Below are positions 1 through 33,431 of a DNA stretch of 33,431 nucleotides, piece after piece. This DNA comes from Planctomyces sp. (GTDB lineage Bacteria > Planctomycetota > Planctomycetia > Planctomycetales > Planctomycetaceae): NCBI GenBank assembly GCA_005778115.1, contig SXKJ01000120.1, positions 1 through 33,431 of the forward strand, read 5' to 3'. The position numbers were made by a program, and so were the translations under genes. Position 1 is the first letter of the stretch. The number at the start of each line of letters is the position of its first letter. Below the pieces are notes generated by a model. The model did no database searches. It worked only from the letters and a program-made list of their open reading frames with translations, and was not told the DNA's origin.

Positions 1-56
1 AGCCCCCCGGTGAATTCGCGGACAAACCGGGGGGGGCTGACGCCGCCCCGCTCGCC
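1..56. repeat. Palindromic repeat family F1, copy truncated by the window start
   Basis: The right arm (26-56) reads accgggggggg-ctgacgcc-gccccgctcgcc and matches the right arm of the complete copy at 3254-3282, with two extra G in the G run. Only the inner end of the left arm (1-11, agccccccggt) is present, so the element continues to the left of the window. Other copies lie at 3205-3282 and 33375-33431, and a degenerate one at 19684-19762 inside a gene. Confidence 0.9.
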
Positions 57-161
57 GGATTGTCTCATGCAGAGCCGAGCGCGGTTAAGATTTCCGTCCG
101 TGCGGCGAATGACGCCGCACGAGATACGGCGAGGGACAGACTCCTCGAAGGCAGCGACGCC

Positions 162-2330
162 ATGAAGTTCACGTTCGGTCCGGAATCACGACCGCTCGAC
201 GGGTACACGATCAAGCGAGCCATCGCACGCGGTGGCTTCGGTGAGGTGTACTACGCGCTGAGCGATTCCGGGAAAGAAGTCGCGATCAAGCTGCTGCAAG
301 AGAATCTGGAGATCGAGCTGCGCGGCGTGACTCAATGCTTGAACCTCAAGCATTCGAATCTGGTGACGCTGTTCGATATCAAGCAGGACCGCGACAACGA
401 CCACTGGATCGTGATGGAATACGTCGGCGGCAAGACGCTCGACAAAGTCATTCACGAAGCGCCGAACGGGTTGCCGTTGGAGGATGTGCTGGCATGGCTG
501 GGTGGCATCGCTGGCGGCATCGGCTACCTGCATGATCGAGGCATTGTGCATCGCGATCTGAAGCCGGCAAACATCTTTCGCGAGAACGGTGTCGTGAAAG
601 TTGGCGACGTCGGTCTCTCGAAGTTCATCGCTCCCAGTCGTCGCTCGGCACACACGCAGAGCGTTGGGACTGTCTATTACATGGCTCCTGAAGTTGCGAA
701 GGGGCGATACGGCAAGGAGGTCGATGTCTATTCGCTCGCGGTGATTCTGGTCGAGCTATTGACCGGCAAAGTGCCGTTTGATGGCGAGACGACCGCTGAG
801 ATCTTGATGAAGCATTTGACCGAGCGACCGAACCTCTCCGCGATCCCACCCAACCTGCGTGGAGTGTTCGAGGCCGCGTTGGAGAAAGATCCGCAGCGAC
901 GCACGAGCGATGTGCTGGAACTCGCTCGACATTTCCGCAATGCCGCTCGTTGCGAAGCGAGTGCGTCGTCACCTGTCATCGAGCAAAACGGTGCCGACTA
1001 TCAGGAGATTCATGCCGAGCGACTCAGGATCTGTTCGCAACTGCGGGGACTGCTCGACAAAGCTCGTAAGCTGGAGACGGCCGCCGATCGCGACCGCGTT
1101 TGGGGCCGGAAGCAGTTGGAACTCGAAGAGCTGTTGCGGCAGGCTCAAGCGATTCGGTCCAACGCTTTCGTCCATGACGAACGTTGCTGGGACTATTCGG
1201 CCGAGGGAACGCTCGCGTCACTGACGTCGATCGCCGCCAAGTTCCGCAACCTGGCGACGCCGCGACTGCCGACGCTCGAGTACGCCGACACACAAGCGTT
1301 TGAACAACCAGCGGCGTACAAACAGCCGGCTCCGCGACCGAGTCCGTTTCCGAAGTCCGCATCTCCGAAATCGGCATGGGACACTTTCTGCTATGCGTGC
1401 GGAGCGCATGTCGGCGGATTGAAGAAGTCGGCGCAGACGCATCCGCTGATGGCTTGGTTGGCCGTGGCCACGTTTTTCCTCTTCTCGATGAAGTACTGGC
1501 CGGGAATGAATTTCGCGCGGATCGGCCACGAGACGCAGCTTGTCTGGTTCTTGATTGGCAGCGTTGCGATCTTCGAGATCTTCCGAATGATCTCGCTCGG
1601 ATTCGATCGGCTGTTTGGCCCGCCTCCACCAAATTCCAACGAGCGTGCCGGTCGAGCGTCCAACGCGGCTCCATTCCGAGCGGCTTATCGAGTCGTGAAT
1701 CCCAATAGCGTGCGCGAGATTTCGTGGCGAAGGCGACTGACCGAACTCAGCGGCTCGCTGGCCACCGCCGGTTTGGCGACGGCGGTGGTGACGGCCGTGC
1801 TGGCGAATGTCGAGCAGTTCTTCGGATCGAGCGCGTTGATTGGTCACTTCGCGACCGGCACGCTGATCGGTTCGTGGAGCTTGCTGATCCTCGGCAAGCT
1901 GCGTGAAGGGATGCCGCGCGAGCGTTACATCGATCGGATGTTGTTGACCGGTGTCGGCATGGTGGTCGGCGTCGCGCTGTTTCAACTCAATGACTGGCTG
2001 CTGATCGACTTGTTGGCTGACGGCTCGCCCGCGCATCAAAGCCTCCTGGCGATGACCAGCTCAACAACGCCAAGCAATTCTCATCGGCTGTTGGCCGAGA
2101 GCTACATCGCGTTCTTCGGGACGCTGTTCGGCCTGCGTCGTTGGTGGTGGCAGACCGACTCGTTCCGTCCGTATCGGTTTCGAGTCCTCTCCGTCTGCCT
2201 GACGGCGCTGATCGGATCAGGAGCTGCCTTCGCATGGGGCTTCCCTGTTTTATGGGGCACCGTCTGGGCCGCCAGTTTGTCGAGCGTCGTGCAACTCTCG
2301 GCGGTGTGGGTGCCGAGGGAGCATCGCTAG
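162..2330 (+). CDS. Membrane-anchored Ser/Thr protein kinase (Hanks/PknB-like)
   Basis: Transfers phosphate from ATP to Ser/Thr of unknown protein targets; the catalytic domain should face the cytoplasm. The kinase domain covers about residues 15-265: glycine loop ARGGFGEVYY, VAIK lysine K43, catalytic HRDLKPAN with D132, the metal-binding loop written DVG instead of DFG (D149), and MAPE at 174-177. A linker of about 170 residues contains a CYAC pair, and the last ~270 residues hold roughly seven hydrophobic segments, more membrane than the usual single-pass bacterial kinase. The ATG at 162 is chosen because a GAAGG sequence lies 10 nt upstream; the frame stays open to a TTG at 60, but those 34 extra codons border a repeat. 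The next gene follows 20 bp downstream on the same strand, so the two are probably cotranscribed. The assignment to the kinase family is secure; the function is unknown. Confidence 0.93.
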   Translation: MKFTFGPESRPLDGYTIKRAIARGGFGEVYYALSDSGKEVAIKLLQENLEIELRGVTQCLNLKHSNLVTLFDIKQDRDNDHWIVMEYVGGKTLDKVIHEAPNGLPLEDVLAWLGGIAGGIGYLHDRGIVHRDLKPANIFRENGVVKVGDVGLSKFIAPSRRSAHTQSVGTVYYMAPEVAKGRYGKEVDVYSLAVILVELLTGKVPFDGETTAEILMKHLTERPNLSAIPPNLRGVFEAALEKDPQRRTSDVLELARHFRNAARCEASASSPVIEQNGADYQEIHAERLRICSQLRGLLDKARKLETAADRDRVWGRKQLELEELLRQAQAIRSNAFVHDERCWDYSAEGTLASLTSIAAKFRNLATPRLPTLEYADTQAFEQPAAYKQPAPRPSPFPKSASPKSAWDTFCYACGAHVGGLKKSAQTHPLMAWLAVATFFLFSMKYWPGMNFARIGHETQLVWFLIGSVAIFEIFRMISLGFDRLFGPPPPNSNERAGRASNAAPFRAAYRVVNPNSVREISWRRRLTELSGSLATAGLATAVVTAVLANVEQFFGSSALIGHFATGTLIGSWSLLILGKLREGMPRERYIDRMLLTGVGMVVGVALFQLNDWLLIDLLADGSPAHQSLLAMTSSTTPSNSHRLLAESYIAFFGTLFGLRRWWWQTDSFRPYRFRVLSVCLTALIGSGAAFAWGFPVLWGTVWAASLSSVVQLSAVWVPREHR

Positions 2331-2350
2331 TCATGTGAAAGGCGTTTGCG

Positions 2351-3181: not shown

Positions 3182-3204
3182 GCGCAAAAAACAAATGACG
3201 CGAC

Positions 3205-3282
3205 GGCGAGCGGGGTGGCGTCAGCCCCCCGGTATTCCGCAGACACCGGAACCACCGGGGGGCTGACGCCGCCCCGCTCGCC
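3205..3282. repeat. Palindromic repeat family F1, complete copy
   Basis: Two 29-nt arms (3205-3233 and 3254-3282) are complementary with one mismatch around a 20-nt loop. The arm starts ggcgagcggggtggcgtcag. It sits between two convergent genes (stops at 3181 and 3313), so the transcript could also act as a bidirectional terminator hairpin, although there is no U-tract. Confidence 0.95.
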
Positions 3283-4425: not shown

Positions 4426-4484
4426 ATTCCTCTGGCCCCATTCCTCTGCCAAACACTTCGGCAGAGGAATGGGGCCAGAGGAAT
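4426..4484. repeat. Palindromic repeat family F2, complete copy (downstream edge of the GxxExxY cassette)
   Basis: Perfect 25-nt arms (4426-4450 and 4460-4484) around a 9-nt loop; the arm begins attcctctggccccattcct. The right arm runs up to the TAA stop of the GxxExxY gene (4484-4486). A second copy with the same left arm lies just upstream of that gene at 5324-5369. Confidence 0.95.
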
Positions 4485-5287: not shown

Positions 5288-5294
5288 GGAAACA

Positions 5295-5299: not shown

Positions 5300-5323
5300 C
5301 AATTCAATTGTCCCAAGTTGTTC

Positions 5324-5369
5324 ATTCCTCTGGCCCCATTCCTCTGCCAAATGCTTTGGCCAGAGGAAT
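5324..5369. repeat. Palindromic repeat family F2, shortened copy (upstream edge of the GxxExxY cassette)
   Basis: The left arm (5324-5348) is identical to 4426-4450. The right arm is shortened to 12 nt (5358-5369, ggccagaggaat), which pairs with the outer end of the left arm, so the copy has lost the inner part of its right arm. It ends two bases before the stop codon of pepA (5372-5374). Confidence 0.92.
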
Positions 5370-6874: not shown

Positions 6875-6933
6875 CGTGGGGCAGGTTTTCAACCTGCCTG
6901 TGGCTCAATGGCAAGTAACAAACCTGCCCCACG
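6875..6933. repeat. Palindromic repeat family F3
   Basis: Arms 6875-6888 (cgtggggcaggttt) and 6920-6933 are perfectly complementary, with a further short complement (aacctgcc) inside the loop. It lies in the gap between the lipoprotein gene and pepA, just upstream of the pepA ribosome binding site. Confidence 0.85.
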
Positions 6934-9633: not shown

Positions 9634-11120
9634 CACACACATCACTCACTTCATTAGCGAACGCGACGCGCGGTGCGTTGATCGGAGGACCGTCCGAAGA
9701 CGCCCGCTGTGGTCGCGTGATGATCGACTCGCGGCTGATCCTGCCGGGCGATTTGTTCTGGGCGTTGCCCGGCGAACATCACGACGGGCACGACTTCCTG
9801 GCGGAGGCTCAGCAACGCGGAGCCAGCGCGGCCGTCGTGCAATTTGATCGACTGCCCCAAGCTCAACAACTCTGGCAGAACGGAGCGCAGCACAGTCCTG
9901 AGTCACCGTTGATTGTGGTCGAGAACACGCTGACCGCGCTTGCCGAGTATGCTCACTGGCATCGGCCGAACCACGAAGCGTTGGTCATCGGCGTCACAGG
10001 CAGCTTCGGCAAGACCACGACTCGCGAGATGATTCACGCGGTACTCTCGGCGTCGCATTCGGGCATTCGCAGTGTGAAAAACTTCAACAATCACATCGGC
10101 TTGCCGCTGAGCGTGCTCGAGCTGAATCGAAGCCACGACTTTGCCGTGTTCGAGATGGGCGCGTCGGCGCTCGACGAGATCGCCTTGCTGGCGGAGATCG
10201 CTCGGCCGGACATTGGCGTCATCACCGGCATCGGTCTGGCGCATGTGGAAGGGTTCGGCTCTCCGGAAGGAATCATTCGCGGCAAAGGTGAATTGCTGGA
10301 GGCATTGCCTCTGAGCGGATTCGCGATTGTCCCCGGTGACGATCCCGTAACGCGCGCGATGGCCAGCCGTGCTCGGTGTCCCGTGCTGTTCGTCGGCGAG
10401 TCGGAGATCAATCATGTGCGTGCGACGAACGTGCGACTGGCCAATCAACGTCTGACCTTCGAGGTCGAACAGATCGAATACACGGTTCCCGTCAGCGGCC
10501 GGCACTTCCTGACGGCCGCGTTGTCCGCGTTGACGATTGCGAATGAAATCGGAATCTCACCGACGAACATCGCCAAAGGATTCGCGAGTTTTCAAGCCGC
10601 TCCGGGACGATGCCAGGTGCATCACATCGGCCCGTGGATCGTGATCGACGACACCTACAACGCGAATCCCGCGTCGATGCGCGCCGCCTGCATCACGCTG
10701 CGTGACTGGCAAGGAGCCAACAAACGGCTGCTCATCACGGGCGACATGCTGGAACTGGGAACGCACGCCGAGCAGTCCCACATCGAACTGGGCCGCTCCG
10801 CCGCCGAGATCGCGGTCGATGGCTTGTTCGTCATCGGCGAGCACGCCGATCTTGTAGTACGCGGAGCACTCGCCGGTGGCCTGCGACCCAGCCGATTGGC
10901 TCAATGCGATGACCTGGAGATCCTGTTGACCGCTCTCGATTGTGTGCTCGAACCGGGCGATGTCTTGCTCGTGAAAGGCTCACGCGGAATGCGCATGGAA
11001 CGTGTCATCGCATGGCTGCGCGAGAAAGCGGAGGGAGCGGAGGTCAGAGATCAGGGTTTAGTCCCAAACAAATCCTCGAACATGTTCTCAAGTCCCCGCC
11101 CCCTAGCCCCTAACCCCTAG
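9630..11120 (+). CDS. murF: UDP-MurNAc-tripeptide--D-Ala-D-Ala ligase
   Basis: Adds D-Ala-D-Ala to complete the pentapeptide precursor in the cytoplasm. The Mur ligase P-loop reads [11 protein letters not shown] at 124-134 (Phe in place of the common Asn), and family landmarks [11 protein letters not shown] and [12 protein letters not shown] follow. It starts with GTG overlapping the murE stop. The conserved MurF end is near residue 464 (AWLREKAE); the final ~30 residues (…[12 protein letters not shown]…PRPLAPNP) have no MurF counterpart I know and are encoded by a repetitive C-rich stretch (11090-11128) containing cccctagcccctaacccc, so the tail appears to come from repeat invasion. mraY starts 11 bp later. 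Confidence 0.95.
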
Positions 11121-11131
11121 CCCCTCCCAAT

Positions 11132-12255: not shown

Positions 12256-12507
12256 GCGTAAGTTTTGAAGTTGCGCCTTTCAGTCGCGAAGCGACGTCAG
12301 CATATAGCTGCGGGCGTCAGCCCGCAGATAAGCGTTGGAATTCGACTTTGAGCCGCGAAGCGGCGACAGCAGATTGCTGTCACGCAGAATGCTGTCGCCG
12401 CTTCGCGGCTAGAAGAACTACTTCCAACGATTCCTTGCGCTTACGCCCAAGGCTATCTGCTAACGTCGCTTCGCGACTCCTGAACAGCGCAGCTTCAAAA
12501 CTCACGC
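12256..12507. repeat. Long imperfect palindrome of about 250 bp (family F4)
   Basis: The left arm (12256 to about 12371) can be aligned with the reverse complement of the right arm (about 12390-12507) along almost its entire length. The innermost 21 bp on each side (12351-12371 and 12390-12410, containing gccgcgaagcggcgacagc) are perfectly complementary around an 18-nt loop; the outer ends (gcgtaagttttgaag / cttcaaaactcacgc) are nearly so. The arms carry smaller palindromes such as tcgcgaagcga and tgcgggcgtcagcccgca. This fills most of the 379-bp gap between mraY and the next gene. No protein is encoded. It resembles a nested MITE-like element. Confidence 0.88.
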
Positions 12508-15819: not shown

Positions 15820-16416
15820 ATGCCCCGCAAATCGACCGCCGAGATCGCTTCTCCCGACCTCATTGAACGGCGAATTCACATTGTTCGCGGACAGCGTGTG
15901 ATGCTGGATTCAGACCTCGCGGACCTCTACGGGACGACCACGATGGCACTCAACCAAGCGGTGAAGCGAAATCTCGACAGGTTCCCCGATGACTTTTCGT
16001 TTCACCTGACGGAGCCAGAGGTTGCAGCTTTGATATCACAAATTGTGATATCAAAGCCGGGCCGCGGAGGCCGCCGAAAGCCAACTCGCGTTTTCACGGA
16101 ACACGGCATCGCCATGCTCTCCAGCGTCTTGAATTCGTTGACCGCCGTGCGAGTCAACATTCAGATCATTCGCACGTTCGTCCGGTTGCGTCGTCTGCTC
16201 GCCACACCCGGCGAGTTGGTCACGCAGCTTCAGCAGTTGGCCGAGACCGTGCAACTGCATGACCGGCAAATCAAAACGATCACCGATGTGCTCACCAGGA
16301 TGATGGAACCACCTCCGGAACCGGCCAAGAAAGGTCGTATTGGATTTCAACCACCCGATTCCATGAGCGATCAATCGCCACCGCCCGCGATGCGCTCTAC
16401 ACGATCTCGCGAATGA
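15820..16416 (+). CDS. ORF6N domain protein
   Basis: A 198-residue protein of the ORF6N group (PF10543), a KilA-N-like DNA-binding domain common in phages and mobile regions. Family landmarks: ERRIHIVRGQRVMLDSDLADLYG at about 17-39, NQAVKRNLDRFPDDFSFHLT, the SQIVISK…GRGGRRK segment, and FTEHGIAMLSSVLNS. A C-terminal helix (LLATPGEL…QLAETVQLHDRQIKTI) likely forms a coiled coil, and GRIGFQPP is a typical ending. The last residues overlap the 3' end of the convergent DUF1501 gene by 20 bp. It is probably a DNA-binding regulator or a mobile-element relic; no target is evident. A 31-bp palindrome lies inside it. Confidence 0.88.
   Translation: MPRKSTAEIASPDLIERRIHIVRGQRVMLDSDLADLYGTTTMALNQAVKRNLDRFPDDFSFHLTEPEVAALISQIVISKPGRGGRRKPTRVFTEHGIAMLSSVLNSLTAVRVNIQIIRTFVRLRRLLATPGELVTQLQQLAETVQLHDRQIKTITDVLTRMMEPPPEPAKKGRIGFQPPDSMSDQSPPPAMRSTRSRE
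16027..16057. repeat. Perfect 31-bp palindrome inside the ORF6N gene
   Basis: Arms gctttgatatcacaa and ttgtgatatcaaagc are exactly complementary around a single central base. It encodes ALISQIVISKP, which agrees with the family sequence at this place, so it does not look like an inserted element. It could be an operator or chance. Confidence 0.8.
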
Positions 16417-17902
16417 CCTGCCCTTCGAGGAACGTCAGTCGTTCATCGCGGCCGAGGTGTGGATAAGTCAGTTGATGCTGATCGAGTCCGAGTTGATGCA
16501 GTATCGTCGTGTGAATGTCGCGGAAGTGATACGGCTTCTCGACTGCCTTGAGCCCGATCGCATCAGTCGCTCCAACCGCTTGTCCTCCCCGAATGCCTCC
16601 GCCGGCCATCCACATCGAGAAGCCGAGATTGTGATGATCGCGGCCTCCGGTCGGCGATTGCGCATCCGGGGAGCGCCCGAACTCGCCACCCCACAGTACC
16701 AGCGTTGTGTCGAGCAAGCCGCGTCGCTTGAGATCCTTCAGCAAAGCGGCCACAGGTTTGTCCGTCTCAGCCGCTTTGCGAAGGTGATTCTCCTCAATGT
16801 CACCGTGAGCATCCCACTGCATGTTGCCCGGCCCGCCACCAGAGACGACGCAAACAAAACGAACGCCGTTCTCAACCAGCTTCCGAGCGAACAAACAGCG
16901 CCGGCCGTAATCGTTGGTTGGCTCCGAACCGATTCCGTAGAGGTCCAGTGTTTCTTGCGGCTCGCGCGACAGGTCGAACACTTCCGGTGCCTCGGTCTGC
17001 ATGCGGAACGCCACGTCGTAGGCGTTGATGCGCGCGTGGAACTCCTCATCAGCGGGATCGAGCGATGACTCATTCAGGCTCCGCAAGAACTCCAACGTGC
17101 GGCGGCGTTGCTGGGGCGTGACATGTTTGGGCAAATCCAAATTGAGTACCGGGTGATCCCCCGGACGAAACATCGTCGGCTGATACACCGCCGGCAGGAA
17201 CCCATGCGCGTACATCGGCTGACCCGCTTCGAGCGCTCCCTTCGGATCGGGCATCACGACGTAGGAGGGCAATGATCGGCTCTCGGCACCCAATCCATAC
17301 AGCAGCCACGAACCCATGCTGGGGAAACCCGGCACCACGCGGCCAGAGAACAATTCATATTGCGCGGCCGAGTGAACCACACTGTCGCCGTAGCACGATC
17401 GCAGTACCGCAATGTCGTCGATGCAGGTCGCCGTGTGCGGGAATAAATCGGAGACCTCAATGCCGCTCTCGCCGTACTTGCGAAACGTCCGCTTGGTTCC
17501 CAACAGCCGAGCGTCGGTATGCACGAACTGGTACTTCGCCTCACCAAATTCCTTCGGCCGCCGCTGCCCATTGAGTTTGTTGAGCAGCGGTTTTGGATCA
17601 TACGTTTCGACGTGACTAGGACCACCGGCCATAAACAGGAACACAATGGACTTCGCCTTCGCCTCAACGTGCGGATGCTTTGCCGCCAGCGGATTCGTAA
17701 TCGCCGCGCGAAGTTGCTCCTCGTGCAGCAACGACGCCAACGCCAATCCACCGAACCCGCAACACGCTTCACGCACAAACTCGCGGCGCGTGCGTGTGGC
17801 ACGAGCGTGAACATAGGATGGGCACTCGTGCCCGTCCTCAATTGTCAGTCGATCATCGGGTCGGGCAAGAGTGCCCAACCTACGGCGAGTGTCATCGAAC
17901 AT
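16397..17902 (-). CDS. DUF1501 protein, Tat-exported
   Basis: A DUF1501 (PF07394) protein related to the alkaline-phosphatase/sulfatase superfamily; activity unknown. A twin-arginine signal (TRREFVREACCGFGGLALASLL) is followed by KSIVFLFMAGGPSHVETYDPK, the conserved metal-site-like start, and near the end LWGGEFGRSPDAQ and GGRDHHNLGFSMW. It is the partner of the DUF1549/DUF1553 gene just upstream: the ATG at 17902 overlaps that gene's TGA by 11 bp, implying translational coupling (a second ATG at 17914 is also possible). A palindrome (17814-17882) adds about 24 residues (RRLGTLARPDDR…) before the RR motif. The frame remains open far upstream only as an antisense-like shadow of the neighbouring gene. 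Confidence 0.93.
   Translation of the reverse strand: MFDDTRRRLGTLARPDDRLTIEDGHECPSYVHARATRTRREFVREACCGFGGLALASLLHEEQLRAAITNPLAAKHPHVEAKAKSIVFLFMAGGPSHVETYDPKPLLNKLNGQRRPKEFGEAKYQFVHTDARLLGTKRTFRKYGESGIEVSDLFPHTATCIDDIAVLRSCYGDSVVHSAAQYELFSGRVVPGFPSMGSWLLYGLGAESRSLPSYVVMPDPKGALEAGQPMYAHGFLPAVYQPTMFRPGDHPVLNLDLPKHVTPQQRRRTLEFLRSLNESSLDPADEEFHARINAYDVAFRMQTEAPEVFDLSREPQETLDLYGIGSEPTNDYGRRCLFARKLVENGVRFVCVVSGGGPGNMQWDAHGDIEENHLRKAAETDKPVAALLKDLKRRGLLDTTLVLWGGEFGRSPDAQSPTGGRDHHNLGFSMWMAGGGIRGGQAVGATDAIGLKAVEKPYHFRDIHTTILHQLGLDQHQLTYPHLGRDERLTFLEGQVIREIV
17814..17882. repeat. Palindromic repeat family F5, in frame inside the DUF1501 gene
   Basis: Arms 17814-17837 (taggatgggcactcgtgccc…) and 17858-17882 are complementary over about 25 nt with four mismatches. 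The element is translated as residues ~7-30 of the DUF1501 protein, upstream of its twin-arginine motif. Confidence 0.88.
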
Positions 17903-20246
17903 ACAAAAACTCATTGAGATTGAAGAGGGCCAGCGCGAACTCGCCGAGCGGCTGCTCGCGGAGAAACTCGGAAGATCGTTGAAGTTCATTGGCCGTGGGT
18001 GCTCGGCCGAGTGCCAATCGGAAGGCTCGGTCGATGATCTTTTCGCGATCGCTGCCGCAGTCACGTTCCAGTCGCTTAGCGAACGCCTGGGCCAAATCAT
18101 TCGCCAACGTGCCGTTGAGCAATTCCAACGCTTGCGGCGGATGCGTGCTCGATTCCCGCCGAGCACAACTGGTCTGCAACGCGGGAGCATCCAAGTTCTC
18201 GAAGAACGGCAACCGCAAGTTGCGCTTCGCAATCAGATAAATCGAACGACGGTCGTGTTCGCTCACGTCGGACGTGATCGCCCACTGCGAAGGCTTGTAA
18301 AGCAACCCCACCAAGTCGGGATCGACCGGCACAATGACGCTCGGCCCGCCGGCCTTGGGATTGAGTCGACCGGAGACGGCGAGCATTGAGTCGCGGATTT
18401 CCTCGGCCGAAAGACGACGTTGAAGTTGGGAGTGAGGAGTGGGGAGTGGGGAGTCGGAAGACAATCGACCATCTGCTGTGTTCTTCTCCCCACTCCCCAC
18501 TCTCCCCTCCCCACTTCGGTAGTTCGCACTCAACACCATCAGCCGATGCAACGGCTTCAATCGCCAGCCATTCTCAATCAACGATGCCGCCAGCCAATCG
18601 AGCAGTTCAGGATCGCTCGGTTTCTCCCCCTTGAGGCCGAAATCGTTGGCGGTCTTCACAAGGCCCGTTCCGAAATGTTGTTGCCAGACTCGATTCACGA
18701 TGACCCGCGCGGTCAACGGGTGATTGGGCGACGTCAGCCACTTCGCCAACTGCATGCGCGGTTGCGTCTCTCCCGGCGAGAGTTCGGGGAGATCGTCGGC
18801 GACCAACACGCTCAGAGGCCGCGGTTGGACGGGCTCCCCTTTGTTCTCCCACACGCCGCGTTTGAGAACATGGATCGCCGTCCGTTTCGCGAAGTCATTG
18901 TGCGTGCTCGGAATGGTCGGCAGCGGCGCGGGGAGTTTGTCTTCCAAGTCTTCGATCTGTTGCGCCAGCCGATCTTTCTCGGCGGCGGTCGTCGCGTCTT
19001 TGATCAGCTTCTGAACGCGAGCAATCTCGTCTTTGACCTTCTTCGTCTCGGCCTCCCACATCTGCCGCTCGTCGGCTGAGGCCAAAACAAGATTGTGTTC
19101 CTCGGTCGCCGCGAGGTACGCCTGCAAGCGGTAGTAATCCTTCTGAGTGATTGGCTCCAGCTTGTGGTTGTGGCACCGAGCACAGCCGACCGTCAGCCCC
19201 AGAATTGCCGCACCCAGGATGTCGGTTCGCTCGGTGAGCACTTCGTTACGACTCAGCGCGATGTCGGTATTCCCCGCATTGCGCCGCACCGGGCCGAGCC
19301 GATGAAAGATCGACGCGGTCAAACACTCGCGGTTCTCCGGTTCGATCTCGTCTCCGGCAAGTTGCTCGGTGAGGAACCGATCAAACGGCTTGTCCTTGTT
19401 GAACGAGTCGATGACGTAATCGCGATACCGCCACGCATCGGGAATGTGCCGGTCGTATTCGTACCCTTCGGTCTCGGCGAATCGCACGACATCAAGCCAC
19501 TGCTGAGCCGCCTTCTCACCAAAATGCCGACTGCCGAGCAACCGATCCACTACCTTCTCGTAAGCCTCCGGCGATTCATCCCCGACAAACGCCTCAACCT
19601 CTTCCGGAGTCGGCGGCAAGCCAATCAAGTCAAACGTCACTCGCCGAATCAGAGTGCGTTTGTCGGCTTCACGAATAATTTCTGGCGAGCCGGCGGGCGT
19701 CAGCCCCCTGACATCTTTCGAGCCTCGCAAATCGTCCGAGGGCTGACGCCCATCGGCTCGCCTACGCAGAGGCTGAAACGCCCAATGTCGCCGCGCCTCA
19801 TCAAACTTGGAATCCTCCGCCTCGGTCGGTTCCCGATCTCGCGGATCGGGAGCACCCATCTCCACCCACTTCACGAAGTCTGCAATCGTCTTGTCCGAGA
19901 GTTTTCGCTCCTTCTTCGGAGGCATCGCCATGCCCCCCTCATGCCGAATCGCCTGAATCAACAAACTCTCGTCGCTCTTCCCCGCCACAACCGCAGGCCC
20001 GCTGTCCCCACCGCGCAGCACCCCCGCTTTGAAATCCAACCGCAAACTACCCTTCAATTCCTCCGCCTGCCGCGAGTGACACGAATAACACTGAGCCTTC
20101 AACACCGGCTCAATCTTCTCCCGAAAGAACCGCAGGCCGTCCGCGTCATCCGCGTGCGCCGACGTACTCGACATCACCAAACAGACCACCGCCACGACAC
20201 CGAACCCGCAGCGGCAGCAAGCATCATGGAAAAAAGAGTCGAGCAT
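17892..20246 (-). CDS. Secreted PSCyt1-DUF1549-DUF1553 protein
   Basis: A 784-residue exported protein. Signal peptide (about 1-32), PSCyt1 with CYSCH at 53-57 and MAMPP at 106-110, DUF1549 with VTFDLIGLPPTPEE at 203-216 and CARCH at 355-359, a coiled-coil-like stretch (KKVKDEIARVQKLIKDATT), and DUF1553 with NRVWQQHFGTGLVKTANDFG and QTSCARRESSTHPPQALELLNG. The two CxxCH motifs could bind haem c, but haem attachment is not shown for this family as far as I know. Two palindromes are translated within it: residues ~162-188 (between PSCyt1 and DUF1549) and ~577-608 (loop before RRLSAEEIRDSML). The stop overlaps the DUF1501 start. A toxin remnant lies 24 bp upstream. Confidence 0.93.
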   Translation of the reverse strand: MLDSFFHDACCRCGFGVVAVVCLVMSSTSAHADDADGLRFFREKIEPVLKAQCYSCHSRQAEELKGSLRLDFKAGVLRGGDSGPAVVAGKSDESLLIQAIRHEGGMAMPPKKERKLSDKTIADFVKWVEMGAPDPRDREPTEAEDSKFDEARRHWAFQPLRRRADGRQPSDDLRGSKDVRGLTPAGSPEIIREADKRTLIRRVTFDLIGLPPTPEEVEAFVGDESPEAYEKVVDRLLGSRHFGEKAAQQWLDVVRFAETEGYEYDRHIPDAWRYRDYVIDSFNKDKPFDRFLTEQLAGDEIEPENRECLTASIFHRLGPVRRNAGNTDIALSRNEVLTERTDILGAAILGLTVGCARCHNHKLEPITQKDYYRLQAYLAATEEHNLVLASADERQMWEAETKKVKDEIARVQKLIKDATTAAEKDRLAQQIEDLEDKLPAPLPTIPSTHNDFAKRTAIHVLKRGVWENKGEPVQPRPLSVLVADDLPELSPGETQPRMQLAKWLTSPNHPLTARVIVNRVWQQHFGTGLVKTANDFGLKGEKPSDPELLDWLAASLIENGWRLKPLHRLMVLSANYRSGEGRVGSGEKNTADGRLSSDSPLPTPHSQLQRRLSAEEIRDSMLAVSGRLNPKAGGPSVIVPVDPDLVGLLYKPSQWAITSDVSEHDRRSIYLIAKRNLRLPFFENLDAPALQTSCARRESSTHPPQALELLNGTLANDLAQAFAKRLERDCGSDREKIIDRAFRLALGRAPTANELQRSSEFLREQPLGEFALALFNLNEFLYVR
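18422..18517. repeat. Palindromic repeat family F6, in frame inside a DUF1553 domain
   Basis: Left arm 18422-18461 and right arm 18482-18517, both based on ggagtggggagtggggag, are complementary with small gaps. Translated on the minus strand it gives about 32 residues (GEGRVGSGEK…LPTPHSQL) between LSANYR and RRLSAEEIRD. Confidence 0.9.
19684..19762. repeat. Palindromic repeat, degenerate F1 family copy, in frame inside a DUF1549 gene
   Basis: Arms 19684-19706 and 19740-19762 are complementary with two mismatches. The left arm ggcgagccggcgggcgtcag resembles the F1 arm at 3205 (ggcgagcggggtggcgtcag). It encodes about 27 residues (ADGRQPSDDLRGSKDVRGLT…) between the PSCyt1 and DUF1549 domains. 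Confidence 0.85.
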
Positions 20247-22466: not shown

Positions 22467-22515
22467 GTAGCCGAACTCGTGAGAGTTTGGACCGAAGCCT
22501 CACGACTTCGGCTAC
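22467..22515. repeat. Palindromic repeat family F7 between lpxD and lpxI
   Basis: Arms 22467-22483 (gtagccgaactcgtgag) and 22499-22515 are complementary with one mismatch around a 15-nt loop. It ends 13 bp before the lpxI start codon, so the hairpin could influence translation or partial termination between the two genes. Confidence 0.88.
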
Positions 22516-23449: not shown

Positions 23450-23509
23450 AAAGTAGACGAGTCACTCCGTGACTCGAACTTTCCGGTCACGGAGTGACCG
23501 GTCTACTTT
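23450..23509. repeat. Palindromic repeat family F8, possible bidirectional terminator
   Basis: Arms 23450-23476 (aaagtagacgagtcactccg…) and 23484-23509 are complementary with few mismatches around a short loop, and each contains its own small palindrome (gtcactccgtgac). It lies between the convergent lpxI and homospermidine synthase genes and reaches the stop codon of the latter (23508-23510). The A-rich start and T-rich end would allow intrinsic termination in both directions. Confidence 0.88.
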
Positions 23510-25307: not shown

Positions 25308-25432
25308 GCGCTCGGCGAGGGTCTCCCGACCCCGCCGAGGGTTTGACCGAAGGTCTCCAATGTCTTCGCGACGCGTCAAGGGAGACCTACGGTCCAGAGA
25401 AGCGGCGGGGTCGGGAGACCCGCGCCGAGCGC
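25308..25432. repeat. Palindromic repeat family F9
   Basis: Outer arms 25308-25336 (gcgctcggcgagggtctccc…) and 25404-25432 are nearly perfectly complementary over 29 nt. An inner pair (gaccgaaggtctcc from about 25345, and ggagacctacggtc at 25381-25394) continues the stem. It lies in the debris between the two polyamine genes. Confidence 0.88.
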
Positions 25433-27964: not shown

Positions 27965-30900
27965 ATGTCTATGCGAGCTACTTTCGCGAGCCTGTTTCTC
28001 GCCATTCTGACTGCGGCTCATGGCCTGCCCGCTCACGCGGATGACTCGGATTTCGAGTTCTTCGAGAAGAAGGTTCGGCCGGTGCTGGTCAAGCATTGCT
28101 ACAAGTGCCACTCGGCGGATGCGAAAAAGCTCGGAGGCGGCCTGCCGCTCGATCATCGTGAGGGACTCCGCCAGGGAGGCGAAACCGGGCCGGCCATCGT
28201 GGTCGGCAAGCCGGACCAGAGCCTGCTCATCAAAGCGATCCGTTATGAAGACGACTCGCTCAAAATGCCCCCCAAGGGAAAGCTACCGGCGGCCGCGATC
28301 GCGGATCTCGAAATCTGGATCAAGAACGGCGCAAACGACCCGCGAGACAAACCGACTCGCGCCCCTGCTGCGGATTCCTGGGCCGAGACGTTTCGCAGTC
28401 GGCGCGATTGGTGGAGCCTGAAGCCGGTCCAGAAGCCGATCGTCCCGCAACCGAAGAACGGAGCCTGGTCGCCTCATCGCGTGGACCGCTTCGTTCTCGC
28501 CAAGCTGGAAGAACAAGGACTGACTCCGGCAGACCAAGCTGACCCCCGAACGCTGGCTCGGCGACTGAGCCTTGTGCTGACCGGCCTGCCGCCAAACGTC
28601 GCTCGGCTCTCCAAAGCCGAGCCGCTCGGTTCTGGGGAACCAAGCTACGAGCAACTGGTCGATTCGCTGCTGGACTCCCCGCACTTCGGCGAGCGGTGGG
28701 CGCGGCATTGGATGGACGTCGTCCGCTTCACCGAGACTCACGGCAACGAATGGAACTACGAAGTCCATCACGCCTGGCGGTATCGCGATTACCTCATCCG
28801 AGCCTTCAACGCGGACGTGCCGTTCGATCAATTCATTCGCGAGCACATCGCCGGCGATCTGCTCCCCGTAGGGTGGGTCGAGTCATCGAGACCCACCAAC
28901 GTAAAGAGTGAGCAACCTAATGGTGGGTCTCGCGGACTCGACCCACCCTACAAGGCTCGCCTTCACCCCACCGAGCACTTCAACGAATCGATCATTGGCA
29001 CCGGCTTCTATCGCTTCGGAGAGGTGAATCACGACGATTGCATCAGTCTCACCTCGCTGGGCTACGACATCGCCGACAATCAGATCGACACGCTGACGAA
29101 AGCGTTTCAAGCGACGACCGTCGCGTGTGCTCGCTGTCACAATCACAAGCTCGATGCGGTTTCGATGGAGGACTACTACGCGCTGCTCGCCGTGTTGCGC
29201 AGCTCGCGAATGGTCAGCCACGGGATCGACTCGCCGGAATCGAACGCTCGGCAAAAGAAGCGTCTGAGCCATCTCAAGGATGAGCTTCGCAAAGAATTGG
29301 CAACCGTTTGGCTCAATGAGGCTCAGCAGTTCGCCCGTTACATGCTGGCCGCGCAGGCCAAGCGAGCTAATCGTCCTGACGCCGAAGAACTGGCCAAGGG
29401 GCTTGATCCTCCGCGATTGGAAAAGTGGATCGCCAATCTTGCGGCCGAGAAGCAGCCGTTCGATGACCCGTTTCAGCCGTGGCGATTGCTCGTAGACCGG
29501 ACGCCCACGTCCGGTCAATTGAGTTCGGCCGTAGGCGTCCGAACTACCGAATTCGTGGCCGCCTGGCAAACACTGTCACAGCAATTCGCGAACGAAGACC
29601 GTGAGCGGTCCGAATTCAATCGGACACAGTTCGTCAGCTTCGCCGATTTTCGGGGCGACGTCGTGTCGCCGGTCGCTGCTGAATGGCAAATCGCCGGCCA
29701 AGGATTGCAGGAGGCTCCGTCGCGCAGCGGTGACTTCGCATTGCATCCCGAAGGGGACGCACTCGTGCGAGCGATCCTGCCCGCCGGCCGTTTCACATAT
29801 GCGTTCTCGGACAAGCTCAACGGCACGCTGCGATCGCCGGTGCTGCCGCTGGGGAAGAAGCACATCAGCTTTCAGGTCATCGGCCAACGCAGCAGCGCGG
29901 TCCGATTGGTCTCGAACAACTGCCAGCTCAACTACAAGAACTACAAAGCGCTGACGTCCGCCGACTGGCAATGGATCACGTTTTCGCCCCCCGACGAGCG
30001 GGACCAACTCCGGACGTATGCCGAGCTGATGACAATGTTCGACAACCCGAAGTTTCCCGACCAACTCTCCGCGCTCGGCGGCGACGGCGGCAACTATCGG
30101 CTGCCTTGGGAGAAGGCTGCTGAAAATCCTCGCTCGTACTTTGGCATCACGCGCGTCGTCCTGCACGATGTTGGCGAACCGCCGAAACCGGAAGTGACTC
30201 ACCTGCGCCCGCTGTTCCGTGATCCTGCCTCGCAAGCCGATGTTTCTAGTCGTTATGCGTCGGTGATTGTCGCAGCGCTGCTACGCTGGGCAGACAACAA
30301 AGCCACCGACGACGACGTCCGCTGGATCGACGCACTTCTGAGGCGCGAGTTACTCCACAACAAGCTCGCTCCATCGCCACGAGTCGAAGAACTCGCAAAG
30401 CAATACCGACAGACCGAAGCCGAACTCTCATTGCCGCGCGTCATTGTGGGGATCGGCGACGGCGGGCCCGGGATCAATCAGCCGATATTCGCACGCGGCG
30501 ATTGCACTCGGCCGGGGGAGGCGGTGCCGCGACGCTATCTCGAAGCGTTGTCTCGCACGAGCGAGTCATTCACGAGTCCCGGCAGCGGACGCTTGGAACT
30601 CGCCGAGCGGATTGCCAGCGCGGACAACCCGCTGACCTCGCGAGTCATCGTCAATCGCGTCTGGCATCATCTTTTCGGCACCGGATTAGTTCGCACGGTT
30701 GATGATTTCGGACACGTCGGCGAGCAACCGTCGCATCCAGAGCTGCTCGATCACCTCGCCACGAAGTTTGTGGAGGATGGCTGGTCGATCAAGAAATTGA
30801 TTCGCGAGCTTGTGCTGACGCGCACGTTTCAGATGTCGAACCAGCCTTCCGCAACCGGTCGCGAGAGTGATCCGCTCAATCGGTTGCTGCGGCATTACCC

Positions 30901-31462
30901 CGCTCGGCGATTGGAAGCAGAAGCCGTGCGCGATTCGATCCTTGCTGCGTCGGGCCGTTTGGATCGCACCATGTTCGGGCTCAGCGTGCAACCGTATCGC
31001 GAGAAAGAATACGCCGATCGCCGCCTCTTCCCCGGCCCGTTGGATGGCAGCGGTCGCCGCAGCATCTACATCAAAAACAATTTGATGGAGGCTCCGAAGT
31101 TCCTCGGAGCGTTCAATCTTCCCGGCGGCAAAGTGGCTCAAGGCCGCCGCGATGTGACCAACGTGCCGGCTCAGGCGCTGGCGCTACTTAACGATCCCTT
31201 CGTGTTGCAGCAGGCGGAGGTGTGGGGCGCGAGCTTGGTGAAACGTCCAGATGAAACGATCCCTGCCAGGATCAACGCGATGTTTCAGATCGCGCTCACC
31301 CGTCCGCCAACCGGCGATGAGCAAGATCGTTTTGAGCAAGCTGTCCGGCAACTTGCAGACTTGCACCAAGTCGCCGGCCCTAATGTGCTGACGAGCCAAG
31401 TCGTCTGGAAGGACGTCGCTCACGCGCTCTTCAACGTCAACGAGTTCATCTATATTCCCTGA
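27965..31462 (+). CDS. Secreted PSCyt1-DUF1549-DUF1553 protein (long form)
   Basis: A 1165-residue exported protein. Signal peptide (MSMRATFASLFLAILTAAHG…AHA), PSCyt1 with CYKCH at 45-49 and KMPPKGKLP, DUF1549 with LSLVLTGLPPNV, WARHWMDVVRFTETHGNEWNYE and CARCH at 388-392, a ~350-residue central region that looks like a beta-sandwich, and DUF1553 with NRVWHHLFGTGLVRTVDDFG and NVPAQALALLNDPFV. Two palindromes are translated inside DUF1549 or just after it: residues ~302-329 (GWVESSRPTNVKSEQ…) and ~510-528. Either ATG 27965 or 27971 could start it. The four-helix-bundle gene and a DUF1501 gene follow on the same strand. Confidence 0.93.
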   Translation: MSMRATFASLFLAILTAAHGLPAHADDSDFEFFEKKVRPVLVKHCYKCHSADAKKLGGGLPLDHREGLRQGGETGPAIVVGKPDQSLLIKAIRYEDDSLKMPPKGKLPAAAIADLEIWIKNGANDPRDKPTRAPAADSWAETFRSRRDWWSLKPVQKPIVPQPKNGAWSPHRVDRFVLAKLEEQGLTPADQADPRTLARRLSLVLTGLPPNVARLSKAEPLGSGEPSYEQLVDSLLDSPHFGERWARHWMDVVRFTETHGNEWNYEVHHAWRYRDYLIRAFNADVPFDQFIREHIAGDLLPVGWVESSRPTNVKSEQPNGGSRGLDPPYKARLHPTEHFNESIIGTGFYRFGEVNHDDCISLTSLGYDIADNQIDTLTKAFQATTVACARCHNHKLDAVSMEDYYALLAVLRSSRMVSHGIDSPESNARQKKRLSHLKDELRKELATVWLNEAQQFARYMLAAQAKRANRPDAEELAKGLDPPRLEKWIANLAAEKQPFDDPFQPWRLLVDRTPTSGQLSSAVGVRTTEFVAAWQTLSQQFANEDRERSEFNRTQFVSFADFRGDVVSPVAAEWQIAGQGLQEAPSRSGDFALHPEGDALVRAILPAGRFTYAFSDKLNGTLRSPVLPLGKKHISFQVIGQRSSAVRLVSNNCQLNYKNYKALTSADWQWITFSPPDERDQLRTYAELMTMFDNPKFPDQLSALGGDGGNYRLPWEKAAENPRSYFGITRVVLHDVGEPPKPEVTHLRPLFRDPASQADVSSRYASVIVAALLRWADNKATDDDVRWIDALLRRELLHNKLAPSPRVEELAKQYRQTEAELSLPRVIVGIGDGGPGINQPIFARGDCTRPGEAVPRRYLEALSRTSESFTSPGSGRLELAERIASADNPLTSRVIVNRVWHHLFGTGLVRTVDDFGHVGEQPSHPELLDHLATKFVEDGWSIKKLIRELVLTRTFQMSNQPSATGRESDPLNRLLRHYPARRLEAEAVRDSILAASGRLDRTMFGLSVQPYREKEYADRRLFPGPLDGSGRRSIYIKNNLMEAPKFLGAFNLPGGKVAQGRRDVTNVPAQALALLNDPFVLQQAEVWGASLVKRPDETIPARINAMFQIALTRPPTGDEQDRFEQAVRQLADLHQVAGPNVLTSQVVWKDVAHALFNVNEFIYIP
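28868..28951. repeat. Palindromic repeat family F10, in frame inside a DUF1549 domain
   Basis: Arms 28868-28898 (gtagggtgggtcgagtcatc…) and 28921-28951 are complementary over 31 nt with two mismatches around a 22-nt loop. The element is 84 bp (28 codons) and adds residues ~302-329 between GDLLP and the HFNESIIGTGFYR motif. Confidence 0.93.
29492..29547. repeat. Palindromic repeat family F11, in frame inside the same gene
   Basis: Arms 29492-29505 (gtagaccggacgcc) and 29534-29547 (ggcgtccgaactac) are complementary with two mismatches; the interior is less well paired (ccggac…gtccgg is a local stem). It is translated as VDRTPTSGQLSSAVGVRTT. Confidence 0.7.
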
Positions 31463-31466
31463 AATA

Positions 31467-31500
31467 AGTGCGGAGCGGGGAGTGCGGAATGCGGAGTTTT
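31467..31500 (+). repeat. Repeat family F12, copy before the four-helix-bundle gene
   Basis: agtgcggagcggggagtgcg… repeats the unit gtgcggagt in the same orientation as the copy at 31919-31954 on the other side of the small gene. It begins five bases after the stop of the DUF1549/DUF1553 gene. Confidence 0.85.
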
Positions 31501-31534
31501 AAGGCCTGCTGTCATGGGCCGATGTGAGGCCTGA

Positions 31535-31909
31535 ATGCCAACCACTGAACCATCGCCCTTGCTCAACCGGTCAAAGCAGTTTGCTCTGCGAACGATTCGG
31601 TTGGTGGAGAGTCTGCCTCGCAAGCGAGCCAGTGGTGTGATTGGTAAGCAGTTGTTGCGCGCGGCGACGTCTGTTGGTGCGAATTACCGTGCGGCGTGCC
31701 GTGGACGTTCTCGTGCGGAATTCTGTGCAAAGCTGGGAATCGTTGAGGAGGAAGCTGATGAGTGCGTCTACTGGCTGGAGTTGGTGATGGTGTCAGGCCT
31801 CTTGAAGAAAGAGTTGGTCGAGAAACTACATGATGAAGCGACGGAGATCCTGAAAATGGTCGTTGCCTCAATCCGTACCGCCCGTCCGAGTCCGAGGAGC
31901 CAGCGATGA
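31535..31909 (+). CDS. Four-helix-bundle protein of the 23S rRNA intervening-sequence (S23) family
   Basis: A 124-residue all-helical protein (PF05635 family). Landmarks: LLNRSKQFALRTIRLVESLP, GVIGKQLLRAATSVGANYRAA with the typical SVGANY turn, RSRAEFCAKLGIVEEEADECVYWLEL, and a last helix LHDEATEILKMVVASIRTA. Relatives are encoded in 23S rRNA insertions of spirochaetes and are similar in fold to the Avd protein of diversity-generating retroelements; the cellular role is unclear. Start ATG 31535 has GAGG upstream. It sits between a DUF1549/DUF1553 gene and its DUF1501 partner, flanked by copies of repeat F12. Its stop overlaps the DUF1501 start (ATGA), and the GAGGAG ribosome binding site for DUF1501 (31894-31899) lies within it. 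Confidence 0.92.
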   Translation: MPTTEPSPLLNRSKQFALRTIRLVESLPRKRASGVIGKQLLRAATSVGANYRAACRGRSRAEFCAKLGIVEEEADECVYWLELVMVSGLLKKELVEKLHDEATEILKMVVASIRTARPSPRSQR

Positions 31910-33345
31910 AACGTGTTTGGAGTGCGGAGTGCGGAATGCGAAGTGCGGAGTTGTCGCGGCGCGAATTGCTCCGTACTTCTGCCAACGGTTTCGGCATTGT
32001 TGCGCTCTCGGCAATGATGGGCAGTCAGGCATCGGCCCTCACAACTCCGCACTCCGCACTCCGCACTCCGCACTTCCAGCCGCGCGTCAAGAACGTGATT
32101 TTCCTGTTCATGGACGGAGGAGTTTCACACGTCGATTCGTTCGATCCAAAAACGAAGCTCGATGAACTCGACGGCAAGCCGTTCCTTGAATCGAAGAACC
32201 CGACCGCGAACGGCAATCGCCAGTGGCTGAAGTGTCCGTGGACGTTTCGGAAACATGGCGAATGCGGAATGCCGATCAGCAGTCTGTTCCCGCACATCGC
32301 GACGCATGCCGATGACCTCGCGGTGATCCGCTCGATGAAGGCCGACTTGCCGATCCATTCGACGGGGGTGCTCTTCCTACACACCGGCTCGAACAACGCC
32401 GGCCGGCCGAGTCTTGGTTCGTGGGTCAACTACGGTCTCGGCTGCGAAAGCCAGAACTTGCCGGGCTTTGTCGTGCTCAGTTTCGGAGTCGTCCCCTGCG
32501 GCGGTCTCGAAAATTATTCGAGTGGCTTTCTGCCCGCGAATCATCAGGCCACGCTGCTCGCGGCCGATGGCACGCCGATCGACAACATTCATCCGGCCGA
32601 CAAAGACTCTCGCATTCAACTCGCCAAGCTCGCGTTACTGCGCGGACAGAACGAAGCGTTCTCGCGGTCGCTCGGTGGAGACGACGATGTCGATGCGGCG
32701 ATCAAGAACTACGAGATGGCGTTCCGAATGCAGTCGCTCGTCCCCGATCTGCTCGATCTGAGCCGCGAGACCGAAGCCACACAGAAGCTATACGCCCTCG
32801 ACTCGAAAGTTCCCTCGCAGCGGCTGTACGGCATCCAATGCCTGCGAGCACGCCGGCTGATTGAATCGGGCGTCCGCTTCGTCGAGATCACCTGCCCGCC
32901 CGGCGCGTCGAACGGCACATGGGACCAGCACGGCAATCTCAAAGCCGGCCACGAAAAGAACGCGCTCGACACCGATCAGGCGATCGCCGGACTGATTACC
33001 GATCTCAAGCAGCGCGGTTTGTTCGAGGAAACGCTGCTCGTGTGGGCCGGCGAGTTTGGTCGCACGCCGCACTCCTCCGGCCGAGACGGACGAGATCATC
33101 ACCCCGAAGGTTTTTCCGTGTGGCTTGCCGGTGGCGGCGTGCGCGGAGGCACGATTTACGGCGCGACCGACGACCTCGGTATGCACTCGGTTGAAAACAT
33201 CTGCACGATGCACGACCTGCACGCCACAATTCTGCATCTGCTTGGCCTCGACCACGAACGCCTGACGTTCCGCTTCAGCGGCCGAGATTTCCGTTTGACC
33301 GATGTGCATGGCAACGTCGTCCGCGAGGTGCTGACGTCCGCTTGA
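31906..33345 (+). CDS. DUF1501 protein, Tat-exported, with repeat-derived segments around its signal
   Basis: A 479-residue DUF1501 (PF07394) protein and probable partner of the DUF1549/DUF1553 protein upstream. Twin-arginine signal LSRRELLRTSANGFGIVALS at about 16-35, then KNVIFLFMDGGVSHVDSFDPK, and near the end VWAGEFGRTPHSSGRDGRDHH and HDLHATILHLLGLDHERLTF. Odd: residues 5-17 (WSAECGMRSAE) and 46-58 (TTPHSALRTPHF) are translations of opposite copies of repeat F12, so the native signal peptide is enclosed by an inverted repeat. ATG 31906 has GAGGAG six bases upstream and overlaps the stop of the four-helix-bundle gene. Confidence 0.93.
   Translation: MKRVWSAECGMRSAELSRRELLRTSANGFGIVALSAMMGSQASALTTPHSALRTPHFQPRVKNVIFLFMDGGVSHVDSFDPKTKLDELDGKPFLESKNPTANGNRQWLKCPWTFRKHGECGMPISSLFPHIATHADDLAVIRSMKADLPIHSTGVLFLHTGSNNAGRPSLGSWVNYGLGCESQNLPGFVVLSFGVVPCGGLENYSSGFLPANHQATLLAADGTPIDNIHPADKDSRIQLAKLALLRGQNEAFSRSLGGDDDVDAAIKNYEMAFRMQSLVPDLLDLSRETEATQKLYALDSKVPSQRLYGIQCLRARRLIESGVRFVEITCPPGASNGTWDQHGNLKAGHEKNALDTDQAIAGLITDLKQRGLFEETLLVWAGEFGRTPHSSGRDGRDHHPEGFSVWLAGGGVRGGTIYGATDDLGMHSVENICTMHDLHATILHLLGLDHERLTFRFSGRDFRLTDVHGNVVREVLTSA
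31919..32077. repeat. Inverted pair of F12 repeats enclosing the Tat signal of DUF1501
   Basis: Left copy 31919-31954 (ggagtgcggagtgcggaatg…) and right copy 32041-32077 (acaactccgcactccgcact…) are complementary over about 36 nt with few mismatches. The 86 bp between them encode the native twin-arginine signal. A third copy at 31467-31500 is in the orientation of the left copy. Confidence 0.92.
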
Positions 33346-33374
33346 TAAATGCCAGCTCGGCCAAAAATGAAACT

Positions 33375-33431
33375 GGCGAGCGGGGCGGCGTCAGCCCCCC
33401 GGTGCTGCGTCGAATGCACCGGAGGGCTGAC
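33375..33431. repeat. Palindromic repeat family F1, copy truncated by the window end
   Basis: A complete left arm (33375-33403, ggcgagcggggcggcgtcag…) and the first 14 bases of the right arm (33418-33431) are present before the sequence ends. Confidence 0.93.

Follow-up and report, generated by a model that had tools for sequence, protein, structure and literature searches.

What are the many palindromes of this planctomycete genome, and why do several of them lie inside reading frames? The question arises from a stretch of 33,431 nucleotides of Planctomyces sp. (assembly GCA_005778115.1, contig SXKJ01000120.1; hereafter the window), which is contig C76, positions 1-33431, of a genome of 7.43 Mb in 515 contigs. 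An initial annotation, made from the sequence alone, had described at least twelve inverted-repeat families in the window, with at least six sites in frame in exported proteins and none in the cores of cytosolic enzymes. In a comparison with named genomes, the MutS of this genome matches an unclassified bacterial metagenome-assembled genome at 70%, followed by Planctomycetaceae and Thalassoglobus at 66%, in a set from which very near records may be missing; this places it among the planctomycetes. We conclude, with a probability of roughly 0.83, that most of the palindromes are non-autonomous mobile elements, either of the repetitive extragenic palindrome/bacterial interspersed mosaic element (REP/BIME) type or of the terminal inverted repeat (TIR) type, the latter as miniature inverted-repeat transposable elements (MITEs), that they land widely, and that the in-frame ones persist in tolerant loops which are re-filled by different families.

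Hairpins were called at a score of at least 14, and the chance level for the window was taken from 30 dinucleotide shuffles. The window holds 13 hairpins against a mean of 0.07 in the shuffles. A census set of 751 kb, composed of 60 sampled stretches (three of them masked) and the window, holds 231 against 2.3, in a search that is biased toward inverted pairs and counts that exclude single units. Extrapolated from this sample, the whole genome would hold about 2,300 such hairpins. By sequence the 231 hairpins form 88 clusters (31 multi-member and 57 singletons), and 188 of them have at least one further locus within the sample. The palindromes listed in the initial annotation were found in place, and its figure of at least twelve families was about right, as the 13 hairpins of the window fall into 12 clusters, eight of them multi-member in the 751-kb set, to which the dimer at 29492-29547 is added, its imperfect arms having kept it outside the 13.

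The high number of repeated hairpins bears on one alternative, namely that local template switching at short inverted repeats makes the palindromes and that no mobile element is involved. The 188 hairpins repeated elsewhere, a family whose unit recurs exactly at 88 of the first 100 sites listed, and the several families that surround transposase genes make this unlikely as a general origin. It does fit the inverted heptad arrays at 18422 and 31919, as their arms are made of tandem repeats, no transposase is assigned to them, and the pair at 31919 leaves the net length nearly unaltered; for the heptad arrays this part of the earlier proposal is possible. Such arrays occur in the window at 18422-18517, 31467-31497, 31919-32077 and 11100-11125, and also at L075:6678, L080:8444 and L097:4520 of the sampled loci. 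They are paired in inverted orientation at two window sites (18422 and 31919), some lie in coding frames, and orthologues contain heptad-encoded peptides such as NFKLQIANFKLQ. Dispersed tandem heptamers are the mark of the heptanucleotide short tandemly repeated repetitive (STRR) sequences of cyanobacteria, a possible counterpart of the arrays seen here. A separate observation is the 31-nt palindrome at 16027-16057 in an ORF6N gene, the sole copy in the sample, which is probably not a mobile element.

Many of the repeated elements show the typical layout of a REP dimer, in which a GTAG or GTGG foot is followed by a short stem-loop and by the inverted mate. A GTAG/GTGG foot was found near an end of 69 of the 188 repeated elements (both ends in 59, one end in 10), and GAGC near both ends of 33. 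In the window, a GTAG foot is seen by eye at 22467, 28868 and 29492, and the elements at 28868, 22467, 23450 and 6875 are inverted dimers. Family 0, the heptad arrays and other families have no GTAG/GTGG foot. Copy number was high and dispersed: the core unit of family 5 occurs at 149 sites in the 7.43 Mb at no more than 3 mismatches, with no site for a reversed control pattern, and a strict two-armed pattern of family 0 gave 19 hits, both strands counted, and none for its control.

A search with the Pfam model Y1_Tnp gave 16 matches in the genome, every one over Pfam's cut-off, which we regard as putative HUH transposases resembling the REP-associated tyrosine transposases (RAYTs). Four families flank such a match on both sides (family 0 at L011, family 3 at L012, family 5 at L016 and family 10 at L014), family 1 adjoins the matches L013 and L015 on one side only, and two more clusters surround the matches L005, L006 and L008. 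On contig C501, family 5 sites at 17812, 18438 and 18482 surround the transposase match 17904-18269. Judged by neighbourhood, these element-flanked matches present the REPtron arrangement known for RAYTs, as described in passages of two papers (PMC3733652, PMC6006769). For five families, and for the Acido-Lenti-1 unit described below, an apparent transposase partner was seen. High dispersed copy number, inverted dimers and an element-flanked RAYT-like gene are the marks of GTAG REP/BIME systems, and the proposal that the elements are non-autonomous and mobilised in trans is supported by families 0, 3, 5 and 10.

The second type of element is represented in the window by the unit at 12282-12478. 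The Rfam family Acido-Lenti-1 (RF01687), listed as a small RNA (sRNA), has at least 59 matches in this genome, 28 of them over the gathering score, a lower bound because 150 of 1507 first-look candidates were scored; none of 14 control genomes has a match. Among the 59 matches, 44 pair up into 22 inverted pairs less than 800 bp apart, with none in the opposite arrangement. Nineteen pairs span 183-199 bp, that of the window included, one spans 242 bp and two span 657-658 bp. The two longest (C109:6154-6810 and C209:2972-3629) each enclose a Y1_Tnp match; both C109 ends and one C209 end score below the gathering score. Terminal inverted repeats around a Y1 transposase, together with shorter copies that lack it, are what defines TIRYT elements and their MITEs, and on this evidence Acido-Lenti-1 appears to serve in this genome as terminal repeat for a tyrosine-transposase unit and its MITE. 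The passages of the paper that describe Acido-Lenti-1 do not mention transposition (PMC2864571).

Coding frames around the 231 hairpins were read from their flanks, with the elements masked, by a home-made Markov/Viterbi gene caller. This analysis placed 66 hairpins in noncoding sequence, 20 at gene edges, 69 between ambiguous flanks and 7 at contig edges. A further 18 lie between differing frames of the same strand, 4 have coding flanks on opposite strands, and 9 keep the frame but have a stop. The remaining 38 are inside coding sequence, in frame and without a stop, including three near the protein start (L017:1598, L097:13058 and window 31921) that may belong to a leader or lie outside the true coding sequence. 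These 38 sit in 30 genes; a Pfam scan matched 26 of the 30 to diverse families and left 4 unmatched, and 30 of the 38 hairpins have other copies in the sample. In-frame insertion into unrelated coding genes is the defining property of the Rickettsia palindromic elements (RPEs), and the earlier comparison with them, as well as the finding of many families inserted in frame, is borne out.

The carriers decide whether such insertions are confined to the secretome, that is, whether elements are targeted to exported proteins or selected in them. The four clear in-frame insertions of the window are all in DUF1549/1553 proteins, and matches to DUF1549/1553 and DUF1501 proteins are numerous in the genus, both of which would favour such a system. 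Against it, a signal-peptide-like start was found in the carriers of 19 of the 34 in-frame elements whose genes have a visible start, where 51% was expected from coding length (p = 0.61), by a crude rule that missed the DUF1549 protein 17892-20246; by this rule there is no secretome bias. Eight carrier genes are cytosolic by family, namely a UvrD/AddA-type helicase (with two elements), MutS, leucyl-tRNA synthetase (LeuRS), DnaX, enolase, an aminotransferase, a U32 peptidase and an ATP-grasp protein. The enrichment in signal-peptide proteins predicted earlier did not appear, these data refute the restriction in this sample, and a secretome-specific system is now scarcely credible. Nor are the cytosolic enzymes of the window free of elements, since the MurF frame (9630-11120) ends within a heptad array that seems to supply the C-terminus of this cytosolic Mur enzyme; the modelled coding signal already stops at 11046.

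Out-of-frame insertions within genes were looked for as well. Of the 27 elements whose flanking frames share a strand but differ or meet a stop, at least 22 have an ATG between 1 nt before and 72 nt after the element end and were taken as intergenic, a weak test as ATG is fairly frequent there by chance and at most six start codons were listed per case. Most of the 27 thus seem to be intergenic, with five candidates undecided (L069:6252, L088:4153, L097:4440, L102:14401 and L103:15471). As a separate observation, the stop codon of the upstream frame starts at base 2 of the element in 9 of the 27, as the TAG of the GTAG foot or the TGA of the GTGA of family 1; such stop-supplying elements include L031:1508, L069:5475, L076:931, L078:13144 and L099:5957. 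These counts also bear on whether the segments are removed or skipped after transcription, by RNA excision or by ribosome bypass of the hairpin, so that the proteins never contain them. Strong hairpins within conserved housekeeping proteins such as MutS and enolase would suit this idea, but the frame and the stop-free state are kept in 38 cases, which would be needless under excision or bypass, and those 27 elements seem for the most part to be intergenic. We regard it as highly improbable.

Orthologues show whether the in-frame palindromes are additional sequence. At 28868, the loop has 37 residues in our genome and 9 in L046 and L048, and the difference of 28 codons equals the 84-nt element. 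In the eight tabulated rows the loop has 37-38 residues with family 5 in our genome, G002 and G006, 31 residues with a family-15-like dimer in G007, G010 and G004, and 9 residues with no element in G003 and G011; the full orthologue alignment contains further short sites. The eight residues immediately downstream also differ from the short-loop orthologues, which leaves exact insertion at 28868 unproved. The 29492 element is present in our genome, G010 and G002 (loci L040 and L045), is absent from the other 11 of 14 aligned rows, and adds about 10 to 15 residues relative to orthologues. At 18422 and 19684 the loops vary in length and orthologues hold other repeat families there. Four of the six sites originally read as in frame therefore stand as orthologue-variable in-frame segments, absent or replaced in relatives. 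The other two do not: the 17814-17882 dimer is probably intergenic, judging from orthologue matches to the DUF1501 query that start at residue 29-32 (62 in one), and the 31919-32077 pair is N-terminal, with nearly no net length change compared with orthologues.

The same analysis was extended to 12 genomes of the genus, our own included, among which orthologues were available from 11 for MutS, 10 for LeuRS, 11 for this enolase and 11 for the AddA-type helicase. At six of the seven tabulated sites, two to five repeat families occupy the same loop in different species. Anchor mismatches kept out of this tabulation all LeuRS rows, our own AddA site 2, one row each for AddA site 1 and the 18422 site, and, at the 28868 site, 6 rows out of 14; LeuRS and our own AddA site 2 were read from other alignments, and the 28868 site partly so. 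The MutS loop lies directly before the Walker A motif. In the 11 genomes it holds family 13 twice, family 3 twice, family 62 (a purine-rich array) once and family 27 once, four loops are longer without an assigned family, and one (L161) is short. The measured MutS stretch has a length of 33 in one of the 11 and of 45-87 in the remaining ten, and outside the genus 69 of 75 measurable sequences have at most 36, with six of 44-66. In an alignment with a MutS of solved structure (PDB), the match continues through the site and shows a gap where the insert lies.

Site 2 of the AddA-type helicase holds families 0, 2, 6, 15 and 39, and site 1 is occupied in our genome only; at site 1, the sole site inspected for it, no clear target-site duplication was found. 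The enolase loop holds family 0 or a VGHVSNVP-coding hairpin unmatched by the families of our genome, and the insert falls between two stretches that align to solved enolases. The insert-bearing enolase may not be the only one, since a second enolase-like match of about 50% identity is present in most genomes, ours included. In the DUF1549B loops, clusters 0, 6, 41 and 72 occur at the 19684 site and clusters 27, 79 and 86 at the 18422 site. LeuRS carries segments that differ in length and sequence in the region of the editing domain.

On gene trees built without the loop columns, the family labels are scattered. In the DUF1549A tree, family 5 appears at two places distant from each other, and so does family 15; at AddA site 2, family 0 is found both in our genome and in the distant G001. 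This scatter calls for re-filling of the loops, recombination or both. A side observation from the trees is that L108 (G002) and L113 (G009), which belong to two genomes of the genus, do not differ in any column used for the trees, which may reflect cross-contamination of assemblies or a very recent exchange. The shortest MutS loop of the genus, L161, reads CGTAG, a possible scar. The scattered labels and this possible scar lead us to a tentative proposal, that a few loops in housekeeping proteins are standing landing pads where incoming elements of other families are drawn to, or recombine with, a palindrome already in place or its scar, so that the site is kept genus-wide while the peptide turns over. 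If true, RAYT elements would be a steady source of new loops in MutS, enolase, LeuRS and AddA-type enzymes.

These data can be brought together in one mechanism. Y1 tyrosine transposases, RAYT-like HUH enzymes acting on a single-stranded foot and hairpin, would copy the elements, which would land widely. Insertions that break a gene would be lost, and in-frame insertions into tolerant loops, whatever the protein, would persist and be translated, mostly as segments of 15-50 residues. Because few loops per protein tolerate insertion, the same loop would be filled repeatedly by different families in sister species. The data show directly the dispersed families and their copy number, the transposase neighbourhoods of several of them, the in-frame positions, the absence or replacement of segments in orthologues and the change of families at shared loops. 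We infer the chemistry of mobilisation, single-strand transposition by RAYTs, the loss of frame-breaking insertions, the translation of the segments and their re-filling by new insertion rather than by recombination.

It could also be argued that the inserted peptides are adaptive, with positive selection on loop variation in repair and translation enzymes. The recurrent occupation of shared loops, also in MutS, LeuRS and the AddA-type helicase, would agree with this, as would the intragenic REPs in DNA repair genes reported earlier (PMC3733652). On the other hand, tolerance of few loops explains the recurrence without selection, and the elements are no more open to translation than shuffled sequence: repeated elements have on average 2.81 open frames of six compared with 3.42 in shuffles. 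The same figures led us to reject the idea that the elements evolved to be stop-free, and they give no support to adaptation for coding. Adaptive loops are therefore improbable in our view, and loop tolerance plus the loss of other insertions is enough, with no coding adaptation needed.

Several points weigh against mobile elements that persist in tolerant loops. No transposition event was observed. Most element families have no assigned transposase, 9 of the 16 Y1_Tnp matches lack an element family on both sides, and 86 of the 188 repeated elements have none of the feet searched for (GTAG/GTGG or GAGC). The matches L011-L015, which include the partners of families 0, 1, 3 and 10, are partial and weak (31.9-39 bits, cut-off 23), L016, the partner of family 5, is nearly full-length yet the weakest at 24.3 bits, and L009 has an internal stop. 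Family 0 is diverse, since its strict pattern matches only 19 times. No other locus was found in the sample for eight of the 38 in-frame hairpins, including the LeuRS and ATP-grasp ones and, in the window, those at 18422 and 16027. At AddA site 1 the extra DNA, 37 codons, exceeds the 69-nt hairpin in length. For orthologue loops, some families were assigned from two or three weak matches, cross-contamination is possible for the L108/L113 pair, and the assemblies of our genome and of most relatives are fragmented.

The features of the window are collected below. The family 12 dimer, outside predicted coding sequence here, has two sampled copies in frame in DUF1549/1553 genes (L080 and L096). 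Half-elements of family 0 lie at each end of the contig, and in five other contigs (C10, C71, C346, C386 and C417) a family 5 copy is found no more than 65 bases from the low-numbered end. As contig ends coincide with these copies, the repeats probably break the assembly.

Repeat elements and associated genes of the window, in order of position
Feature	Position	Strand	Context
Half of family 0 element	31..56		Contig end
Family 0 element	3205..3282		Outside predicted coding
Family 16 hairpin	4426..4484		Related stretch at 5321-5360
Family 18 dimer, GTGG foot	6875..6933		Upstream of PepA coding stretch
Heptad (CCCCTAG) array	11100..11125		MurF reading frame terminates within
TIR/MITE-like unit, 197 bp	12282..12478		Ends are inverted Rfam Acido-Lenti-1 (RF01687) matches; inner hairpin 12346-12415
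DUF1501 protein, portion downstream of 17814 element	16400..17811	-	
Family 6 dimer	17814..17882		Between DUF1549/1553 stop and conserved DUF1501 start (probable)
DUF1549/DUF1553 protein (second)	17892..20246	-	Carries 18422 and 19684 elements
Inverted pair of heptad (AGTGGGG) arrays	18422..18517		In frame, protein 17892..20246; sole copy in sample
Family 0 element, GGCGAGC foot	19684..19762		In frame, protein 17892..20246
Family 4 dimer, GTAG foot	22467..22515		Outside predicted coding
Family 17 dimer, GTAG near both ends	23450..23509		Between predicted coding stretches
Family 12 long dimer	25308..25432		Outside predicted coding
DUF1549/DUF1553 (PSCyt1-PSCyt2-PSD1) protein	27965..31462	+	Carries 28868 and 29492 elements
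Family 5 inverted REP dimer, GTAG foot	28868..28951		In frame, protein 27965..31462
REP dimer, GTAG foot	29492..29547		In frame, protein 27965..31462; resembles element L090:7547-7610
Single heptad array	31467..31497		Related to 31919 arms
DUF1501 protein (second)	31906..33345	+	Holds 31919-32077 pair
Inverted heptad (GGAGTGC) arrays	31919..32077		Flank N-terminal signal region of second DUF1501 protein
Half of family 0 element	33375..33403		Opposite contig end

REPs are regarded as elements that lie outside genes. In this genome they seem to contribute parts of housekeeping proteins, at what we estimate to be a few hundred sites (from 38 in 751 kb, or 30 when hairpins without another copy are excluded). 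Comparison with sister species reveals where foreign peptide is tolerated, and so provides a natural map of insertion tolerance in enzymes. The genome also provides a set of transposase-element pairs for biochemistry. Caution is advisable, as such segments, and the planctomycete Acido-Lenti-1 'RNAs', may be mobile-element sequence. We are aware of no earlier description of housekeeping enzymes in which single loops carry several families across a genus, and neither this nor multi-family in-frame elements in planctomycetes came up in the open-licence literature searched.

The closest known system is that of the GTAG REP/BIME elements and their RAYT (TnpAREP) transposases, which our elements resemble in the GTAG/GTGG foot of 69 of 188, the short stem-loop, the inverted dimers, the many copies and, for several families, the element-flanked transposase. 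They differ in that dozens of clusters coexist in one genome, many with other feet, and in that 38 of 231 hairpins are in frame in genes, a proportion with no like-for-like count in another genome. The TIRtrons/TIRYT and their MITEs are matched by the Acido-Lenti-1 pairs, which twice enclose Y1_Tnp and elsewhere form units of about 195 bp, except that this repeat is catalogued in Rfam as an sRNA. With the RPEs our elements share, by description and not by sequence, the palindromic structure, the dispersal and the in-frame position in unrelated genes; RPE-4 and RPE-6 are placed among the CGTC REPs and said to have no dedicated transposase (PMC3733652). Coding palindromes are also described from nematomorph mitochondria, with arms that encode conserved protein regions (PMC6649704). 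Inverted repeats are tolerated in coding sequence in both cases, whereas the arms of our elements add sequence to variable loops.

Passages of Di Nocera et al. (2013; PMC3733652) report REPs wholly inside open reading frames in Opitutus, Rickettsia, Thauera and Xanthomonas, repair genes and tRNA synthetases included, different REPs at about the same recB site in two Xanthomonas species, and REP ends that can supply stop codons. Our elements are alike in their position within reading frames, in their repair and tRNA-synthetase carriers and in their stop-supplying ends. They differ in being genus-wide, with several families per site in MutS, the AddA-type helicase, enolase and DUF1549 proteins, a turnover shown by orthologue alignments that include short-loop relatives. 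Intragenic REPs are thus known already, and the new part is multi-family turnover at shared loops of housekeeping enzymes.

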